From positions 2,079,812 to 2,143,811 of the forward strand of contig NZ_CM001022.1 in assembly GCF_000165795.1 (NCBI RefSeq): a DNA stretch of 64,000 nucleotides. Reading direction: 5' to 3'. Position 1 is the first letter of the stretch. The number at the start of each line of letters is the position of its first letter. The position numbers were made by a program, and so were the translations under genes. Of the stretch, positions 19,281 through 51,900 are shown one piece after another. The stretch comes from Aminomonas paucivorans DSM 12260 (GTDB taxonomy: Bacteria > Synergistota > Synergistia > Synergistales > Synergistaceae). The notes under the pieces were generated by a model. That model made no database searches. It had not been told where the DNA came from and saw only the letters and a program-made list of their open reading frames with translations.

Positions 19281-19448
19281 AAGGAGGAATTTCTATATGC
19301 CTACCCATTAATTCATTTATAGGGGGGCAGGACCCTAAGGAGGAATTTCTATATGCCTACCCATTGATTCATTTATAGGGGGGCAGGACCCTAAGGAGGA
19401 ATTTCTATATGCCTACCCATTGATTCATTTATAGGGGGGCAGGACCTT
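19281..19448 (+). repeat. Three tandem 56-bp repeats, each with a Shine-Dalgarno and a 4-codon frame
   Basis: Three head-to-tail copies of a 56-bp unit start at 19281, 19337 and 19393. Each begins AAGGAGGAATTTCTATATG, a perfect anti-Shine-Dalgarno match nine bases before an ATG, followed by CCT ACC CAT and a stop (TAA in copy 1, TGA in copies 2 and 3), so each could be translated to Met-Pro-Thr-His. The unit ends with a G-run (taggggggcaggaccct). Copies 2 and 3 are identical; copy 1 differs by the stop-codon base, and the last bases of copy 3 drift (ccttga). No spacers are present, so it is not a CRISPR array. No downstream gene on the same strand is evident. Confidence 0.9.
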
Positions 19449-20233: not shown

Positions 20234-20269
20234 CAAAAAAAGGACCCTCCCGAATGGGAAGGTCCTTTG
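20234..20269 (-). terminator. Rho-independent terminator after tRNA-Asn (left copy)
   Basis: On the minus strand GGACCTTCCC, loop ATTC, GGGAGGGTCC and then seven Ts form a classic intrinsic terminator just downstream of the tRNA. The same structure with loop AAAC follows the right tRNA-Asn. Confidence 0.9.
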
Positions 20270-20276
20270 AGAGATC

Positions 20277-20352
20277 TGGCTCCTCGACCAGGACTTGAAC
20301 CTGGAACCTAGTGGTTAACAGCCACCCGCTCTGCCGATTGAGCTATCGAGGA
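20277..20352 (-). tRNA. tRNA-Asn (GTT), left copy
   Basis: A complete 76-base cloverleaf with encoded CCA: acceptor TCCTCGA pairs with TCGAGGA, discriminator G; anticodon loop CTGTTAA gives anticodon GTT; T arm has GGTTCAAGTCC. It is identical over its length to the copy at 24958-25033, although flanking bases have diverged, which suggests selection or gene conversion. No promoter is evident directly upstream; it could be read from transcripts crossing the TOPRIM gene. Confidence 0.95.
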
Positions 20353-20445
20353 GTGTCGAAGGTTTTTGCCGTGTTTCCCTTGCCTGTTTCATTCATCCGT
20401 TGCGGAACTTCGTAAAAACCCTCGAAACCTGTAGGGCGAAAAGCT

Positions 20446-20489
20446 TGGAGGCGGCACCCGGATTCGAACCGGGGGTGAAGGATTTGCAG
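20446..20489 (-). pseudogene. tRNA-Cys 3' fragment (anticodon loop to CCA)
   Basis: These 44 bases match the 3' part of the intact tRNA-Cys at 25127-25200 with one difference (ggggg versus gggga in the T stem/variable side). The fragment starts exactly with the anticodon loop CTGCAAA and runs to CCA; upstream sequence is unrelated to tRNA. This is the expected leftover when an element integrates at the anticodon loop of a tRNA gene. Confidence 0.9.
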
Positions 20490-20644
20490 GCCCGACCGTC
20501 GTTTTTGTCCCTATCCGACCTTCCAAATAGTCGATTCGATGGCCAAGAGACCGCCATAGCAAGTCATCGTTCGGCATATGACCGGGGTATTCATACCCTC
20601 TTCCTTCGAGTCCCGCTCCCCTCGGCTCACAGATGAGGTTTCGA

Positions 20645-21400
20645 TCATTCGGCTCGTCTCACGGCTTCCAGCAGGTCCGTCTTGAACTGATCGAAGCTGG
20701 GCATTTGGATTCGAGAGGGATCCACCCTCCCGGTTCGCACCCACTCCGCCTGTTCCTCCGAAGGCACCGGGACGACAGCGCTCTCCACGGCTTCGGCAAG
20801 GAGCTTCTTGGGGGAACGGGGACTGTCGTCGTTTCCGGACAAATCCTCCAGATCGGCACATCCCTGATAGGGGGCCTTTTGAAGGGCGCAAAGAAGCCAC
20901 GCTTCGCTCTTCGGCTTGGGGATCATGGGGACCCCAAGTTCGCAGCCAACACTCCGAAATCCCGAGCGCATCGAATCGACCTTTTCCCTCCACAGTCCCC
21001 GAGAAGAACTGCGGGTTCCGTCGCAGTCCCGAAACAACACGGCCACGACGCTGCCGGGGTTATCCCTTTCGTCTGCCTGCCAAGCCTGAGCACGACGCCC
21101 CAGGGCTTGAGCGTTCTTGAAGAAAAAGCCCGTTCCCTGCGGGCGGCTTCGACCCGGCAATACCGTACTCCGGTTTGTGCCCCTTTCCCGGCTCTCCCTC
21201 TCCTGCCTCGTCAAAGCGGCTTCGGAGACGTACCGGACGGCCTGAGTCTCCAGGGGGGAATAGTTGCATTGGCTTTCAACGATCCTATCGAGGATCCAGG
21301 CCATGGGGCCGGGCTCGAAGGTCTCCCCCTCTCCCCAGTCTCCCGGTCCGTTCACCCTTCCCAGATCCGAGGAACCCTCTCCGCTCAGCAGGAACTTCAC
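20645..21400 (-). CDS. TOPRIM-like protein, partner of AAA ATPase (candidate defence effector)
   Basis: This 251-residue protein is translated from an ATG overlapping the ATPase stop (ATGA, 21397-21400), so the two are coupled. Features in order: FLLSGEGSSDLG at the N-terminus (a Glu at the end of a first beta strand, as in TOPRIM motif 1), FEPGPMAWILDRIVES, then VVAVLFRDCDGT (D-x-D, TOPRIM motif 2) and MIPKPKSEAWLLCAL (a basic K-x-K-x-E segment typical of this group). No signal peptide or membrane helix. Related ATPase plus TOPRIM pairs include AbiL and PARIS, where the TOPRIM protein is the toxic nuclease. I cannot assign it to a named system. Composition fits foreign but ameliorated DNA. 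Confidence 0.65.
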   Translation of the reverse strand: MKFLLSGEGSSDLGRVNGPGDWGEGETFEPGPMAWILDRIVESQCNYSPLETQAVRYVSEAALTRQERESRERGTNRSTVLPGRSRPQGTGFFFKNAQALGRRAQAWQADERDNPGSVVAVLFRDCDGTRSSSRGLWREKVDSMRSGFRSVGCELGVPMIPKPKSEAWLLCALQKAPYQGCADLEDLSGNDDSPRSPKKLLAEAVESAVVPVPSEEQAEWVRTGRVDPSRIQMPSFDQFKTDLLEAVRRAE

Positions 21401-22662
21401 CGAGAACCCGCCTCCTCGGGGGCGTCGGCCAATTCCTTCGCCAGTTCCTCCAAGGGGGTGTCCGCGAAGACTTCCCCGGGACCGAGGAGTCCCAGCTTGC
21501 TCGACGGGTCGGAGAGGTCGAAGAATCGCTTCGCCCGGGTATGGCCCAACCGGTCTCGATAGAGGAACACCACGCCTCTGCGGGCTACGTCGTCGGGAAG
21601 GTAGTTGAGGATCATGGGGCTGTGGGTCGTGAAAAGCACCTGCGAGGGAGCCTCCAGAAGCAGGTCGATCAGGTCCCGGATCCTCTCGGGGTGGATCCCG
21701 TTTTCGATCTCGTCGAGCAGGAGCAGGGAAGGTTCCTCCTCGAGCTGCCCCAGTATGGCGAGCAGTCGCAAGGTTCCGTCGTTGACGTATCGCTCGTTGA
21801 TGTCCACGATCTTTTGTCCCTGGGTCTCCGAGAAGATCAGTTCCTTGGTGCCGCCGGGACGTTTGCGGATTCTGATGTCCCGCAGCGCGGGAGCGAAACG
21901 AGCGATGCGCTCCTGCAGATTGCCCCGACGGTCCTCTGGGAGGGCATGGATGAATCCCGCAAGACGCTCGCCCCCCAGACCGATGCTGTCCTCTTTTCTC
22001 TCCTTCTTGCGGATGAGGTTCGGGGCCAACAGCTCCAGGGACCGTTCCTCCACGAGGAAACGCTTCAGCCTCTCCAGCCCCGAAATCTGGCGGGTCTGCG
22101 TCTCGAGCAACTGGGACAGGATGGAACCCTGGTACTTGAAGGCAATCTCACTCCGCCCGTCATAGCCCTCGGGAGGCGGATCGGAATAATATCTACCTTC
22201 ATGAACCGTGAAGGACATCCCCTCCGAGTCCAGGTATTTTTCGCCCAGACAGGATAGGCCTCCCTTGGTGGCGTCGATCTCCCCATACCAGGACATCCAG
22301 GGCCGTCTGCCGATCTCGCCCGATTCGTCGTCCTCAAAGAGCACCCGAAACCGGATCAGCCCGGACCGAGAACGCAAAAAGGCTCCCTCCATGGGAAAAT
22401 CGGGGAAATCCGTATTCGGATACAGCCATTTCGGCAAAGGCTCGGCGGTTCGGCTGCGGAGGTCCGAAAGTTTCCACCCGCGTCGGCTCAGGTAGCCCTC
22501 CAGATCCCCTCGGAAGAGCTGGCACAGAAAGTCCAGGGCCTGCAGAAGGGTGGATTTGCCCGCCCCGTTGAGGCCGATGAGGCCCGTGAGGTGCTCCATG
22601 GGCAGGTCGAAGTGCACCAGGCTCTTGAAGTTATGGATCTGCAGCCGTCGGATCCTCAGCAT
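21397..22662 (-). CDS. AAA ATPase, RecF/OLD-like (AAA_21 type), candidate defence sensor
   Basis: This 421-residue ABC-class ATPase begins MLRIRRLQIHNFKSLVHFDL, the usual first strand of RecF/OLD/SMC-like ATPases. Walker A is GLNGAGKSTLL (about 29-39); the signature-like region is VNDGTLRLLAIL; Walker B is SLLLLDEIENGIHP; and the H/switch segment is QVLFTTHSPMILNYL. An insertion of about 200 residues lies between Walker A and the signature region, as in AAA_15/AAA_21 proteins. The frame extends to 22764, but the ATG at 22662 gives the right N-terminus. It overlaps the TOPRIM-like gene. Such ATPases sense infection and hold or release a toxic partner in several phage-defence systems; that role here is inference. 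Confidence 0.8.
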   Translation of the reverse strand: MLRIRRLQIHNFKSLVHFDLPMEHLTGLIGLNGAGKSTLLQALDFLCQLFRGDLEGYLSRRGWKLSDLRSRTAEPLPKWLYPNTDFPDFPMEGAFLRSRSGLIRFRVLFEDDESGEIGRRPWMSWYGEIDATKGGLSCLGEKYLDSEGMSFTVHEGRYYSDPPPEGYDGRSEIAFKYQGSILSQLLETQTRQISGLERLKRFLVEERSLELLAPNLIRKKERKEDSIGLGGERLAGFIHALPEDRRGNLQERIARFAPALRDIRIRKRPGGTKELIFSETQGQKIVDINERYVNDGTLRLLAILGQLEEEPSLLLLDEIENGIHPERIRDLIDLLLEAPSQVLFTTHSPMILNYLPDDVARRGVVFLYRDRLGHTRAKRFFDLSDPSSKLGLLGPGEVFADTPLEELAKELADAPEEAGSR

Positions 22663-22821
22663 CGGTGCGCACCCCCAGAAGGTTCCCTTTTGCCCCTTGG
22701 ATTTACACTGCAAACGCAACAGGTAGCGGGGCATAGGGTGCCTTAGACAACAAGATAGGCCCACGACAGGACCTTCGCTAGAAGGGTGTCACCACAACAA
22801 CCACAGCGAGGGGGTCCTGTC

Positions 22822-23187: not shown

Positions 23188-24606
23188 GGTTCCTCATCAT
23201 CCCGTATGGGCTGCTTCCCGGGGCCCAGGAAACCGCAGTTGCATCTTAGCGTTGACCAGTAAATAGCTCAGAGCCGCATAGGTGGAGGTGCGGTAGCCTC
23301 GGGCTTTCGCCGAGGCGGCCTTGAAGAGGCTGTTGCGTCCCTCCAGGATGCCGTTGTCGATCCCGGTTCGGATGTGATTCAGGACCCCCTCCCAGTGATT
23401 CTTGATGGTTCGGGCCAGCTTCTTGACCGGTTCCAGGCGGCTGTGGCTGGCGCGCCAGTACCAGCGCTTCAGCCACACGGTCCCCCAGCGCGGGGTCTTC
23501 TCGTAGAACTCCTGAAGGAGCAGTTTCAGGACGTAGGCCTGTTGGGTCTTGCGGGTGTTCTTTGAGGCAAGCAGGGTGGAAAGAACCGTCTTCTGCTTGG
23601 GCGAGAGGCTTTCGGGGTTGTAAAGCCAGAGATAGCGGCTTCCCGTCCGTTCCTCGGCGCTTCGGCGTTCCTCCCGGCGGACCTGGTCCACCGCTTCGTT
23701 CATCATTTTGATGACGTGGAATTTATCGTAGGTCAGCCGAGCCTGGGGAAAGTTCTCCCCGATCCCCTGGATGAATGCCTCGGACATGTCCAGGGTGAAG
23801 TCGGTGATGACGGAGGGGGCGACGCCCCGTGAGGCCAGGTAGGCCGCAAACCGCGCCAGGACGACCTTGCCTTTCCCCTCCGTGACCCCGATGGCGTGTC
23901 CCTGGTCCAGGTCCACGAAGGCGGTGACATCCCTGTGTCCCCTGCGGTAGGAGGTTTCGTCCACCCCGACCCTTCGCAGTCCCGTAAGGTCCTGGGTGGC
24001 CAGGAAGCGCTCCACATGCCGGCGGATGATCCGCCAGAGTCGGGTGTCCGTCTCCCCCAGGATGCGGGAAATCTCCTTCACGGGAAGAAGGGGGGCCAGT
24101 TCCATCACGAAGGCTTCGAAGAGCAGGGTGAAGCCGCTTCGTTCCTCCCCCCAGGGAACGGCGATCTGGTGAACTCCGTGTTCCGGACACTCCGTTCGGG
24201 GGACCCGGGCATGAAGGTAGGTCTTGTGCTGGAGGAGGAGGTTCAGGTGGCGCCAGGTGCGCTCCAGGCAGTCATGAACCGGATGGGAGCCCCCGCATTT
24301 GGGGCAGGGGAATCGGGTGCCCTCCCGGAAGGAGACGTGCAGGTCCACCCGTCCCTCCAGGGGATCCCATTCGATGGACCGGATGAACCAGGGCTCTTCC
24401 AGGCCCTGAAAACCCAGGAAGAGCTGGTTCAAGTCCGTCACTTCTTTGCCGCCGCTCTTTCGCGCCTTGCGCATGAATCCGTCCTCCAGTGAGAGAACCA
24501 TGAAGGAGTCTCATGAAATTTGAACTCTATGCTAACACTGAACCCGGAACACGCCAGGCCTCAAAGGGCCTGTTCCGGGGTAGCCCATACGGGATGATGA
24601 GGAACC
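23188..24606 (-). mobile_element. ISL3 family insertion sequence, apparently intact
   Basis: The element is 1419 bp, bounded by perfect 25-bp inverted repeats (GGTTCCTCATCATCCCGTATG and four more bases) at 23188-23212 and 24582-24606. It encodes one transposase on the minus strand whose stop codon lies inside the left repeat. ISL3 elements normally make 8-bp target duplications; the eight bases outside the two ends here do not match (left ending cagcccc, right agattttg), so flanking sequence has been lost or rearranged. It sits directly against the IS30 fragment. Confidence 0.88.
23197..24501 (-). CDS. ISL3 family transposase
   Basis: This 434-residue DDE transposase has an N-terminal zinc finger (CPKCGGSHPVHDC at about 75-87, then CPEHG), a helix-turn-helix region (LLPVKEISRILGETDTRLW), and a catalytic core with likely acidic residues in VGVDETSYRRGH, VITDFTLDMSEAF and GILEGRNSLFK. 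TYDKFHVIKMMNEAVDQVRR is a strong ISL3 signature. Length and composition are normal, with no frameshift, so it may be active. The alternative start MRKARKSG lies nine codons in. The gene fills most of the element. Confidence 0.93.
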   Translation of the reverse strand: MVLSLEDGFMRKARKSGGKEVTDLNQLFLGFQGLEEPWFIRSIEWDPLEGRVDLHVSFREGTRFPCPKCGGSHPVHDCLERTWRHLNLLLQHKTYLHARVPRTECPEHGVHQIAVPWGEERSGFTLLFEAFVMELAPLLPVKEISRILGETDTRLWRIIRRHVERFLATQDLTGLRRVGVDETSYRRGHRDVTAFVDLDQGHAIGVTEGKGKVVLARFAAYLASRGVAPSVITDFTLDMSEAFIQGIGENFPQARLTYDKFHVIKMMNEAVDQVRREERRSAEERTGSRYLWLYNPESLSPKQKTVLSTLLASKNTRKTQQAYVLKLLLQEFYEKTPRWGTVWLKRWYWRASHSRLEPVKKLARTIKNHWEGVLNHIRTGIDNGILEGRNSLFKAASAKARGYRTSTYAALSYLLVNAKMQLRFPGPREAAHTG

Positions 24607-24912: not shown

Positions 24913-24949
24913 ACAAAAAAAAGGACCCTCCCGTTTGGGAAGGTCCTTT
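24913..24949 (-). terminator. Rho-independent terminator of the tRNA operon
   Basis: Minus-strand GGACCTTCCC, loop AAAC, GGGAGGGTCC, then eight Ts. It ends the Val-Asp-Phe-Gly-Cys-Asn tRNA transcript. Confidence 0.92.
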
Positions 24950-24957
24950 GAGAGAGC

Positions 24958-25033
24958 TGGCTCCTCGACCAGGACTTGAACCTGGAACCTAGTGGTTAAC
25001 AGCCACCCGCTCTGCCGATTGAGCTATCGAGGA
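24958..25033 (-). tRNA. tRNA-Asn (GTT), last gene of the tRNA operon
   Basis: Complete 76-base tRNA with encoded CCA, anticodon loop CTGTTAA (anticodon GTT). Identical to the left copy at 20277-20352. Confidence 0.96.
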
Positions 25034-25126
25034 GTGTCAAAGGTTTTTGCCGTGTTTCCCTTGCCTGTTTCATTCATCAGATGCGGAACTTCGTAAAAAC
25101 CCTCGAATTCTGTAGGGCGAAAAGCT

Positions 25127-25200
25127 TGGAGGCGGCACCCGGATTCGAACCGGGGATGAAGGATTTGCAGTCCTCTGCCTTACCACTTGGCTATGCCGCC
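25127..25200 (-). tRNA. tRNA-Cys (GCA)
   Basis: Complete 74-base tRNA with encoded CCA; acceptor GGCGGCA/TGCCGCC, discriminator T (U in the RNA, as usual for tRNA-Cys), anticodon loop CTGCAAA. Its 3' 44 bases are duplicated at 20446-20489. Confidence 0.96.
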
Positions 25201-46092: not shown

Positions 46093-46652
46093 CCCAGGTC
46101 CACCGGCAGGGCCCGGTAGCGTTCCTTGAGGCCCCGGATGCGCTCCTCCAGCCTCGGGGCCTCCGGGGAGACCGCCACGGCCTCCCGGAGGCCGTGCAGG
46201 TCCAGGTAGGCGTTGTGGTGGTTCGTCCCCTTCGCCCCGAAGAGGGCAGAAAGCATGGTCAGGTCGTCGGGCATGTGGAAGTCCTCCGCCGTCTCGGCGT
46301 ACTCGAAGAGGTACCAGACCTCCCGAAACCCCGACCAGGCCAGGGCGGACAGGCACATGGAGCAGGGCTCGTGGGTGGCCAGGAACACCGTCTCCCCCGG
46401 GGCGGGATGGTCCGGCAGCTCGAAGAACCGCAGGATCGTGTCGATCTCCCCGTGGAAGACCGGGTTGTCCCCCCGGCGGTTGCTCCCCACCGCCAGGGGC
46501 TGGAGGGTCTCCGGGTCCAGCACCGCCCCGCCGAAGAGGTTGTGCCCCCGGCGGACGCACTCCTCCGTCAGGGGGAGGATGCGGTGTTCCACCACGTCCA
46601 GCAGCGCGTCGATCTCCTCGGCCGAAATGGTGCCGGGACTGCGGAACCTCAT
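46089..46652 (-). CDS. Nucleoside/base deaminase, CDA superfamily
   Basis: This 187-residue zinc deaminase-fold protein has the zinc site in VFHGEIDTI (H-x-E, again with Gly in the middle) and EPCSMCLSAL (PCxxC). Family relatives deaminate guanine, cytosine or nucleosides; in this purine cluster, guanine or a related base is the likely substrate, but SsnA may share that job. The Phe/Tyr-rich C-terminal half (WYLFEYAETAEDF, NHHNAYLDLHGL) is not typical of TadA. It overlaps ade by 4 bases and lies 28 bases after ygeW, so it is part of the operon. Confidence 0.85.
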   Translation of the reverse strand: MRFRSPGTISAEEIDALLDVVEHRILPLTEECVRRGHNLFGGAVLDPETLQPLAVGSNRRGDNPVFHGEIDTILRFFELPDHPAPGETVFLATHEPCSMCLSALAWSGFREVWYLFEYAETAEDFHMPDDLTMLSALFGAKGTNHHNAYLDLHGLREAVAVSPEAPRLEERIRGLKERYRALPVDLG

Positions 46653-48959: not shown

Positions 48960-51900
48960 TTACCGGTTTTCCCCTCTGTCCAGCAGGTAGGGGACGCTCC
49001 CTTCCATCCCTTCCAGAAGGACCCCCATGAGAAAAGCCCGCTCCAGGGACCGCTCCCCCGGGAAGGGGCAGCGCAGCCGCACCCGGCGAGGCCCGAAGGA
49101 GGGCAGCAGCTCCACCTCCAGGAAGGGGTCCCGGTAGAGCCACCCCCGGGGGGGGCGCTCCAGGGACGCCTCGATCCCTCCCTCCTTCCAGGCGATGCGT
49201 CCCCTTCGGGCCAGGAAGGCGTTCTCCTCCTCCATCCCGTAGGCCTCCGGGGAGAGGAAGAGCCGGGGCTTGTCCGCGTGGGGACGCCCCCCCTGGTGGA
49301 CACAGAAGGTCTCGCAGTTGCCGCAGTGGTTGCACAGGTCCTCCAGGTGGACGATCTGCCGGTCCTGGCGGACCCGCACCTCCCGGGAAGAGGTGACCCG
49401 GACCCCCTCCCCCCGGCAGGAGAAGACCGGCGCCGTCCCCCAGGCGGGGCGCACCCGGACCGCCAGGTTCGCCCGGTTGGGGCACACGTCGACGCACTTG
49501 TCGCACACCAGGTCGCAGGAAAGACACCGGGCCGCTTCCTCCACCGCCTCCTCCCGGGTCAGGGGAAGCTCGGCGAGGCCGAAGCCCCGGGCGTCCCCCC
49601 GCCCCTCCCGACGGGCGGGGACCTTCACGGCGCGGCGGAGCTTGAGGAGCTCCACCTCCTCCTCCGTGGGGACCTCCGGCGGCTCCTCCTCCGGGAAAGG
49701 CACGGCGAAGGCGTGACACAGGGATCGGGCGGCTTTTCTTCCGTCCCCGCAGGCGGCCACCACCGTCTCGGGTCCCCGCACCAGGTCCCCCCCCACGTAC
49801 ACCCCCGGCACCGTGGAGACGAGGCTGTCGAAGGCCCGGGCCCTGCCCCCCTCCAGCTTCACCCGGCTTTGGGAGAAGAGCAGGGTTCCCTGGGACTGGC
49901 CGATGGCGACGATCAGGGCGCTTCCCTCCAGGGAGAAACGCTCCTCCGTGGGGACGGGGCAGGGTCTTCCGTCGGGCCCCGCCTCCCCCAGACGGTTTCG
50001 GCGGCACTCCAGGCCCCGGAAGCGCCCCCCCTCCGAGAGGACCTCTTCGGGGGAGGCCAGCTCCCGGATCTCCCCCCCCTCCGCCAGGAAGGCTTCGACT
50101 TCTTCCTTAGCCGCGGGCATCTGGTCCAGGCAGCGCCGGTAGACCAGCCGGACCGAGGCTCCCAGGCGCAGGGCGGTGCGGGCGGCGTCCAGGGCGGTGT
50201 TGCCCCCTCCCGCCACCAGGACCCGGGGGCCCAGGTCCGGGGCTTGGCCCCGGGCAACCCCCTCCAGAAACGCCAGGGCTCCGTAGACCCCCTGCGTCCC
50301 CTCCCCGGGGATCCCCAGGGGGGCGTCGCAGGGGAATCCCGAGGCCAGGTACACCCCGTCGAAGGATTCCAGCAGCCTCTCCGGGGGCCCCTCCGCGGGG
50401 GAGGAGAAGCGAAAGTCCACCCCCAGGGCCTCGATGCGCACCACGTCCCCCTCCAGGGCGTCCTCGGGGAGACGGAACCGGGGGGCCAGGGCCATCATCC
50501 CCCCGGGGCGATCCCGGGCCTCCAGGACGGTGACCCGAAATCCCGCCCGGGCCAGCTCCCGGGCCGCCGCCAGGCCCGAGGGCCCGGCGCCCACCACCGC
50601 CACCTTCGGACCGTTTCCGGGAACGGGAGAAACGGAGACTCTCCCGTAACGCTCCGCGGCCCGCTTCAGGGCCCGGATGGCCACGGGCTCGTCGATCTGG
50701 GAGCGGGTACACCGGTCCTGGCAGGGGTGGGGACACACGTGTCCCGTGACCCCGGGCAGGGGATTTCTCCGCAGGATCCCCTCCAGGGCCCCGTCGAAGT
50801 CCCCCCGGGCGAGGCGCCGCACGTACAGGGGCACCTCCTGGTCCACGGGGCAGGCGGCGGTACAGGGGGCCTCCACGCAGTCGAAGGGCCCCAGGGGGGT
50901 GGGCACCCGGGGGACCCGGACCGGGGCGAAGCGGTAGCGCGGGTCCTCCAGGGAGGACGCCGCCAGCTCTTCCAGGCGGGCCACCCCGTCCCGGGCGAAG
51001 TCCCCCAGACCGGTGCAGCCCGCCGCCCGAAGGGTCTCCTCCAGCCCCCGGGCCCAGGAGGCCAGGCGTCCGTACCCCCCGGGCTTGAGAAACTCCGTGG
51101 CGGCGGTGACCGTCCGGACGCCGCAGGCGAAGAGGGACGCCAGGTTCTCCTGGTCCGCCCCGGCGGAGAAGGACACGGGCAGGTCGGGGAAGTCCTCCCG
51201 GATCCGGCGGAAGAGGTTCACCGCCAGGGGGAAGAGGGGACGACCGGAGAGGTACATCTCCCCCCCGGGGAGCCGCCCCTTGCGGTTCTCCAGGGCCAGG
51301 GTGTTGGTGAGCTTCACCCCGAAGGAGACCCCCCGGAGCCGGGCGGTCTCCGCCAGGTTGCGCAGGATCTCCACCGCCTGGGGGTACCGGAGGTCGTGCT
51401 CGAAGGCGGAGTCGGGGACGTGCAGGTCCCGGAAGCCCAGGCTCCCGTTCAGGATGGACCGGACGCCCTCCGCCCCCAGCAGGGTGGGGTTGAGCTTGAC
51501 GAACACGTGGAGCCCCCGGCTCAGGAGGTAGGAGGCGATCCTCTCGATCTCCTCCGGGGGACACCCGTGCATGGTGGACAGGGTGCAGCTGGAGGCGATC
51601 CGGGAGGGGACGGGGATCTCCGCCAGGTCCGGCCGACGGACCCGCAGGACCCGGCGGCACGATTCGATCTCCTCGGAGGCGTCGGCCATGCGGGCCAGGA
51701 ACTGCTGCATCCGGGGCCGAAGGATCCCCTCCAGGTTGTACCCCACGCTCAGGTTGAACAGGGTCCCCTCCCCCGGGTCCTCCCACCCCAGGATCCGGGG
51801 GAGCAGGTGCACCAGCACCCAGGCCCGGGCGTACTCCGAGGCGGACTGCTCCAGCTTCAGCTCCTGGGACCACTCCACGTTGGTCCCCTCGTCCTCCATG

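Follow-up and report, generated by a model that had tools for sequence, protein, structure and literature searches.

PDC-M25 of Aminomonas paucivorans: a candidate phage-defence pair of an OLD/RecF-type ATPase and a TOPRIM-like protein, with relatives inside BREX operons

What is the function of two overlapping genes that occupy a small tRNA-flanked island of Aminomonas paucivorans DSM 12260? The genes, here called M25A and M25B, lie in a stretch of 64,000 nucleotides of contig NZ_CM001022.1 (positions 2,079,812 to 2,143,811), hereafter the window, whose numbering is used below. An initial annotation of the window had proposed a translationally coupled pair of an ATPase and a TOPRIM-like protein acting in anti-phage defence, and possibly a new variant. 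Pairs of this type constitute a growing class of phage defence. On balance, we favour the reading that the pair consists of a sensor ATPase, M25A, and a diverged DUF4276-type, TOPRIM-like two-metal nuclease, M25B, with a role in phage defence. We observed that the two genes overlap and are almost obligately paired, that the putative metal ligands of M25B are invariant and appear in the TOPRIM strand order, that a number of relatives are embedded in operons of bacteriophage exclusion (BREX) systems, and that the window copy sits on a tRNA-Cys island. The pair and its motifs map as follows (pLDDT, predicted local distance difference test).

21397..22662, minus strand: M25A, OLD/RecF-type ABC ATPase of 421 residues (open reading frame; PADLOC PDC-M25A; Pfam AAA_21; AlphaFold2 model with pLDDT 90.9; SMC, Rad50 and PtuA folds)
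20645..21400, minus strand: M25B, DUF4276-like/TOPRIM-like putative two-metal nuclease of 251 residues, GTG start (open reading frame; PADLOC PDC-M25B; 84-row alignment; AlphaFold2 model with mean pLDDT 93.4)
21397..21400, minus strand: overlap of M25A and M25B, 4 nucleotides, GTGA
22549..22575, minus strand: Walker A, GLNGAGKST, M25A residues 30-38
21697..21723, minus strand: Walker B, LLLDEIENG, M25A residues 314-322
21377..21379, minus strand: M25B E8, TOPRIM-type glutamate within GEGxxDxG, with D12 four residues further; E8 invariant in 84/84 rows
21020..21028, minus strand: M25B D125-x-D127, TOPRIM-type DxD; both aspartates invariant in 84/84
20903..20908, minus strand: M25B S165-E166, putative metal-B glutamate within the KxKxE segment, a role suggested by comparison with Bp OLD; invariant in 84/84
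20807..20809, minus strand: M25B K198, possible catalytic lysine by analogy with K562 of Bp OLD; 83/84

Both open reading frames, their motifs and the 4-base overlap were found where the initial annotation had placed them, and its description of a coupled OLD/RecF-type ATPase and TOPRIM-like pair was upheld. The start of M25A is the ATG at 22662, which is backed by homologues; the program that lists open reading frames instead takes an upstream GTG at 22764. Walker A, Walker B and the H-loop (TTHSP at residue 345) are all intact in M25A. The three motifs of M25B, GEGSSDLG, FRDCDGT and PKPKSEAWLL, are found at residues 7, 123 and 161, respectively. Judging from the sequence, the GTGA overlap may couple translation of the two genes, and a Shine-Dalgarno-like GAGGAGG lies directly 5′ of the M25B start. 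Immediately 5′ of M25A, a promoter scan detected no sigma-70-like site.

We compared both proteins with the PADLOC profiles. M25A was matched by PDC-M25A (E = 1.4e-114, in two stretches) and M25B by PDC-M25B (E = 3e-86, residues 1-249 of 251), and the genes have the PDC-M25 arrangement, with A before B and adjacent. By these profile matches, the window pair is an intact copy of an already catalogued candidate defence system, PDC-M25. The proposal that it belongs to a defence-associated family was thus supported, while the suggestion of a new variant was not, since both components match PDC-M25. The window copy agrees with that system in both proteins, in gene order and in close spacing, stands solitary on its tRNA-Cys island, and showed nothing that would set it apart. 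According to passages of PMC12988326, PDCs are putative candidates that were identified through ‘guilt-by-embedding’, and most members of its core set still await validation.

In the case of M25A, Pfam returned AAA_21 (E = 5.1e-28) and PADLOC returned, in addition, HEC-01A (6.6e-29), AriA (5.7e-28, far below the PDC-M25A score) and AbiLi (2.3e-19), the last being a match of the ATPase half alone, with the presence of AbiLii in the library unconfirmed. The comparison with named defence models that the initial annotation had called for gave a divided answer: the ATPase was matched by AriA, AbiLi and HEC-01A, but the small protein exclusively by PDC-M25B models. At E≤1, five PADLOC models matched M25B of the window, all of them PDC-M25B, with no AriB and no HEC-01B, and no Pfam family did, DUF4435 included. 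The PADLOC library does contain AriB models. We rejected membership of the phage anti-restriction-induced system (PARIS), M25B lacking both an AriB match (PADLOC) and a DUF4435 match (Pfam) at this threshold. A sequence-profile search of the PDB with M25B gave 0 matches at E≤1, and PHROGs gave none at E≤0.1.

Scanning a genome collection with M25B yielded 113 relatives, of which the best 80 were retained; together with 2 viral contigs they make up 82 loci. In 80 of these, the gene immediately upstream of M25B is M25A, and the remaining 2 loci begin inside or just before M25B at contig ends. A length filter was passed by 77 M25B rows of the 82 loci and by 76 of 80 M25A rows, and in 73 pairs the spacing was measured: in 72 the genes overlapped or stood no more than 20 nucleotides apart, and in 28 the overlap was exactly 4 nucleotides. 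Relatives of M25B were carried by 7 of 72,556 plasmids, and M25A and M25B of Oceanisphaera, queried separately, returned the same 7. Phage records held no M25B relative at E≤0.01. Among 100 related genomes, 6 had an M25B match, the window's own genome counted, and M25B fragments in two of the related genomes (L006/L007 in G094, L005/L008 in G090) suggest broken copies or contig ends. In a tree of 77 rows (71 of the 82 loci, 5 plasmids and the window), phylum labels needed just 9 changes, with a shuffled mean of 30, and the family therefore mostly tracks phyla in this sample. The place of the window row is unsure because it sits on a long end branch that pairs with another long branch (L046, support 92). 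Elsewhere in the same genome, adjacent DUF4276 and AAA_21 frames (C1:1936098-1937260; L112, L098) form a second, more canonical pair of the same general kind.

For M25A, sequence and predicted structure point to the same class. Foldseek matched its model to the heads of SMC, Rad50 and Septu/retron PtuA proteins, with E-values down to 1.4e-13; structural comparison gave Z 21.9 with 5xei (root-mean-square deviation 4.0 over 291 residues) and a Z of about 19-20 with PtuA. By sequence, the leading solved structures were 9n69 (an AAA family ATPase), 8ee4 (PtuA) and 6p74 (OLD), with AriA a weak match (7e-5). Profile and model thus agree that M25A is an OLD/RecF-class ABC ATPase with an SMC/Rad50-like head.

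M25B demanded closer inspection. In the 84-row alignment, G7, E8, G9, D12, G14, D125, D127, G147, M159, S165, E166, W168, E185 and G189 were invariant, and K198 was kept in all rows except one. The adjacency of the genes in 80 of 82 loci and the invariance of the glutamate, the DxD, S165, E166 and W168 indicate that the pair and its motifs are more than chance. The K-x-K-x-E segment, which the initial annotation had considered as a possible subtype mark, did not hold up in that role: its lysines vary (K162 in 72/84, K164 in 73/84), and the constant positions are S165, E166 and W168. The AlphaFold2 model (78 rows; predicted template-modelling score 0.91) places strand 2-7 before E8, strand 118-123 before the DxD and strand 156-159 before E166; judged by the order of elements, the glutamate follows strand 1 and the DxD strand 3 of the core sheet, as TOPRIM motifs do. 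Passages of PMC6755086 give the ligands of Bp OLD as E400, E404 (four residues on), D455, D457, T506, E508 (in the following helix) and K562, and mention an extra metal-binding glutamate in OLD TOPRIMs and RNase M5. By analogy, D12, E166 and K198 of M25B would be the positional counterparts of E404, E508 and K562, and the position of E166 in the model would fit the metal-B glutamate of OLD TOPRIMs and RNase M5.

As for remote relatives, Pfam DUF4276 matched 20 of the 84 M25B members at E≤0.1 (best 1.6e-5), every other Pfam family matched a single member, and three distant members gave weak matches to one HEC-01B model (8.9e-6 to 0.0065). With hhalign, M25B scored 25-26% against the full DUF4276 set and 13 decoys at most 1.4%. 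The segment from the first motif to the DxD comprises 117 residues in M25B and about half as many in the compared DUF4276 sequence. Taken from profiles and model, M25B is probably a TOPRIM-like, diverged DUF4276-type protein.

The neighbourhood of the relatives was then considered. Searched by tblastn with type-1 BREX references, 15 of the 82 genome and viral loci carried at least two BREX core genes, all on the M25 strand and with M25 inside the operon, in the PglX-PglZ gap in 13 and in the BrxC-PglX gap in 2; two further loci gave a lone PglX-like match. On plasmids, 6 of the 7 that carry M25 also carry BREX, with M25 in the operon (annotation was examined for 6 of the 7, and the sixth BREX plasmid, H6, was placed from match positions). 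Given a base rate of 275 BrxC-bearing plasmids in 72,556, this enrichment has a hypergeometric p of 2e-14, or 1e-9 when three Moellerella plasmids are counted as one, the plasmids not being independent draws. A local check found BrxC in the Acinetobacter, Azotobacter, Oceanisphaera and Moellerella W1 plasmid stretches and none in the Hydrogenimonas stretch, where the 12 kb around M25 showed no BREX gene and an HNH gene lies downstream.

Other restriction operons were found as well. At L017, a BrxC-PglZ-BrxD set (PADLOC, type-2-like) follows M25, and the same families occur in L023. L017, L021 and L023 share neighbour families upstream of M25, one of which is PDC-M28C in L017, which suggests an operon common to M25, a second PADLOC candidate and a type-2-like BREX at these loci. 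In L032, L050 and L054, M25 is flanked or followed by genes of type I restriction; it is preceded by a type III enzyme in L044 and by LmuB in L016. Two sister species of Allochromatium have near-sister, near-identical M25 pairs in differing restriction contexts: that of Allochromatium humboldtianum (L083) lies in BREX, that of A. palmeri (L044) beside a type III enzyme. Passages of PMC12839542 already describe the recruitment to BREX of OLD-ABC ATPases linked to TOPRIM, which serve there as backup effectors, and passages of PMC11341690 a PARIS embedded in a Salmonella BREX island, so that the habitat of M25 is of a known kind. In L032 (10772-14757), M25 is separated from a type I restriction subunit by a Schlafen/AlbA_2 protein that carries a histidine-kinase-like ATPase domain. 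In the BREX operon of the Oceanisphaera plasmid (L012, 6836-14263), an AriA/AriB-like pair occurs together with the M25 pair.

For the 65 loci without a tblastn BREX match, 30 hand-chosen open reading frames in 25 loci were surveyed; 10 hand-chosen frames of 6 loci were also examined. A defence-type, helicase or antitoxin neighbour was present in 7 of the 25 (L016, L017, L021, L032, L044, L050, L054). Homologues are not consistently placed in housekeeping operons, which the initial annotation had named as an outcome that would speak against defence: neighbours vary and include BREX and restriction operons, though many loci have metabolic or unassigned ones. On the tree, the 19 rows labelled as BREX-embedded required no fewer than 15 changes; since the shuffled mean was 17.2 and 112 of 1000 shuffles needed as few, embedding is scattered almost at random over the family. 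The window's own genome has, elsewhere, one PglZ-domain frame and two HsdR frames.

How might such a pair work? If M25A is a sensor ATPase and M25B a nuclease, M25A would probably detect infection and keep M25B in a coupled complex. A product of the phage would trigger the ATPase, with an anti-restriction protein or a state of the phage DNA as plausible candidates. M25B would then cut nucleic acid, for which PARIS offers the precedent of host tRNA and OLD and Gabija that of DNA, and the cleavage would stop infection, probably at the expense of the cell. AriB, a two-metal tRNase according to passages of PMC12409363, is by this analogy the nearest counterpart of M25B with a known action. Like M25, PARIS has separate, adjacent genes for an OLD-type ATPase (AriA) and a TOPRIM-like protein (AriB), and both kinds occur in BREX operons; unlike AriB, M25B matches neither AriB nor DUF4435 models. 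HEC-01, an AAA ATPase with a DUF4276 protein, resembles M25 in that M25A matches HEC-01A and M25B is remotely DUF4276-like, but the window M25B has no HEC-01B match and its segment between first motif and DxD is longer. OLD and Gabija GajA share with M25 a RecF/SMC-like ATPase and TOPRIM-type ligands with an acidic residue at +4 and a later glutamate; they are single ATPase-TOPRIM proteins whereas M25 has two genes, and the fold link is weak.

Several results weigh against the reading of a sensor ATPase and a TOPRIM-like nuclease in defence. Foldseek found no match of the M25B model in the PDB at E≤0.001 and nothing significant in BFVD. The test of the TOPRIM fold proposed by the initial annotation gave a mixed picture: topology and motif positions agree in the model, but a significant PDB match is missing. 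In a second look (VIA), the OLD TOPRIMs 6nk8 (Z 6.2, deviation 4.2, 158 aligned), 6p74 (Z 5.7, 4.8, 135) and 6njv (Z 5.2, 4.7, 152) did align with M25B, but they were outranked by lumazine synthases (Z 7.4), in a range of Z where unrelated arrangements also score. Two DUF4276 subsets reached 0.7% and 1.3% in hhalign, no better than the decoys, and profile comparison gave nothing with OLD-TOPRIM (8 sequences, 0.8%) or AriB-like sequences (4 sequences, 0.1%), both sets being small and the evidence correspondingly weak. With regard to habitat, 65 of the 82 loci had no BREX gene by tblastn in the DNA examined, which is an undercount, as L017 with its PADLOC BREX set is among them; 18 of the 25 sampled loci had metabolic or unassigned neighbours, such as QueG, LptF/G, gyrase B and DNA ligase; and no BREX or restriction gene was seen beside the pair in the window. 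Finally, a literature search found no paper naming PDC-M25 or DUF4276.

Of the other explanations, the one that survives best is that M25 guards restriction, as a PARIS-like backup set off by phage anti-restriction proteins; we regard it as possible, though short of probable. It would account for the placement inside BREX and restriction operons, whether in the PglX-PglZ gap (13/15) or the BrxC-PglX gap (2/15) or beside type I, type III and type-2-like systems, for the scattering of BREX embedding on the tree and for the Oceanisphaera operon with both pairs, and passages in the literature describe a BREX-embedded PARIS and its Ocr trigger. However, many relatives, the window copy among them, were not seen beside restriction genes, embedding may be mere hitch-hiking in an operon, and the embedded Salmonella PARIS was unresponsive to Ocr in the test reported in passages of PMC11341690. 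A bolder form of the idea, which we hold to be doubtful, casts PDC-M25 as a guard cassette of the second line that roams between restriction operons and joins the one resident in the cell, be it type 1 or type-2-like BREX, type I or type III; once phages disarm restriction, it would unleash a TOPRIM nuclease of a new class, the DUF4276 branch. The residue map of M25B (E8, D12, D125, D127, E166, K198) and the restriction-operon habitat turn a database candidate into a testable hypothesis, namely that M25B is a metal-dependent nuclease set off upon inhibition of restriction.

Alternatively, M25A-M25B could act as an OLD/Gabija-like DNase that degrades or nicks phage DNA, with no cleavage of host tRNA, which we consider rather unlikely. 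The putative ligand set of M25B resembles that of Bp OLD, a DNase in passages of PMC6755086, and M25A resembles Septu/retron PtuA and SMC/Rad50 heads. On the other hand, the AriB tRNase reportedly shares metal-cluster side chains with RNase M5 (passages of PMC12409363), and the OLD site has likewise been compared to RNase M5 (passages of PMC6755086); because both sites resemble RNase M5, the substrate cannot be read from the ligands.

It is less likely again that the pair is a toxin-antitoxin or addiction module that maintains its island and has no defence role. Two overlapping genes on a small island with insertion sequences, the Pfam description of AAA_21 as a putative AbiEii toxin and the unrelated neighbours at many loci would fit such a module, but the enrichment of BREX on plasmids and the recurrent BREX embedding are unexpected of a plain addiction module. 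Least credible of all is a non-catalytic adaptor or inhibitor role for M25B, with a Rossmann-like fold: the lack of a significant structural match to a known nuclease would agree with it, but E8, D12, D125, D127 and E166 are invariant and the acidic residues that follow the strands lie, in the predicted model, where a TOPRIM metal site is expected.

We finally turned to the island, whose other features are listed here.

20235..20492: outer direct repeat, with a terminator-like sequence, tRNA-Asn and the 3′ part of tRNA-Cys
24916..25173: inner direct repeat, running on into the intact tRNA-Cys
25127..25200, minus strand: intact tRNA-Cys (GCA); the outer-copy junction is at the 5′ edge of its anticodon loop
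22786..23106, plus strand: truncated transposase with HTH_38, which we take to be IS30-like
23188..24606, minus strand: complete ISL3-family insertion sequence with 25-nucleotide perfect inverted repeats

A direct repeat of 258 nucleotides (96% identity) bounds the pair and delimits an island of 4.7 kb, in agreement with the tRNA-flanked island proposed previously. The two copies share CTGCAAATCC and diverge where the anticodon loop of tRNA-Cys begins on its 5′ side. A junction at the anticodon loop of a tRNA is expected of site-specific integration by tRNA-targeting integrases. The initial annotation had not described the two insertion sequences, and the ISL3 element has 4 further near-full copies (94%) elsewhere in the genome. 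The M25 pair, the truncated HTH_38 transposase and the ISL3 element occupy nearly the whole island and therefore leave no room for a full integrase gene, for which no search was made. The G+C fraction is 0.58-0.64 in the island, 0.67-0.71 to the right of 25500 and to the left of 18000, and 0.43-0.59 between 18000 and 20500; because this last segment is still lower, composition alone fails to mark the left edge. Three relatives (G002, G021, G031) have the tRNA array Val-Asp-Phe-Gly-Cys-Asn without duplication, and since the array alone aligns and the flanks do not, they do not demonstrate the pre-insertion state. Within the window, ARAGORN also called a tRNA-Arg at 46154-46241 and a tRNA-Gly at 49370-49450, possibly false calls as Rfam does not list them at gathering score. 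Just to the left of the island, at positions 19281-19446, a 56-bp unit occurs three times in almost identical form (99% match).

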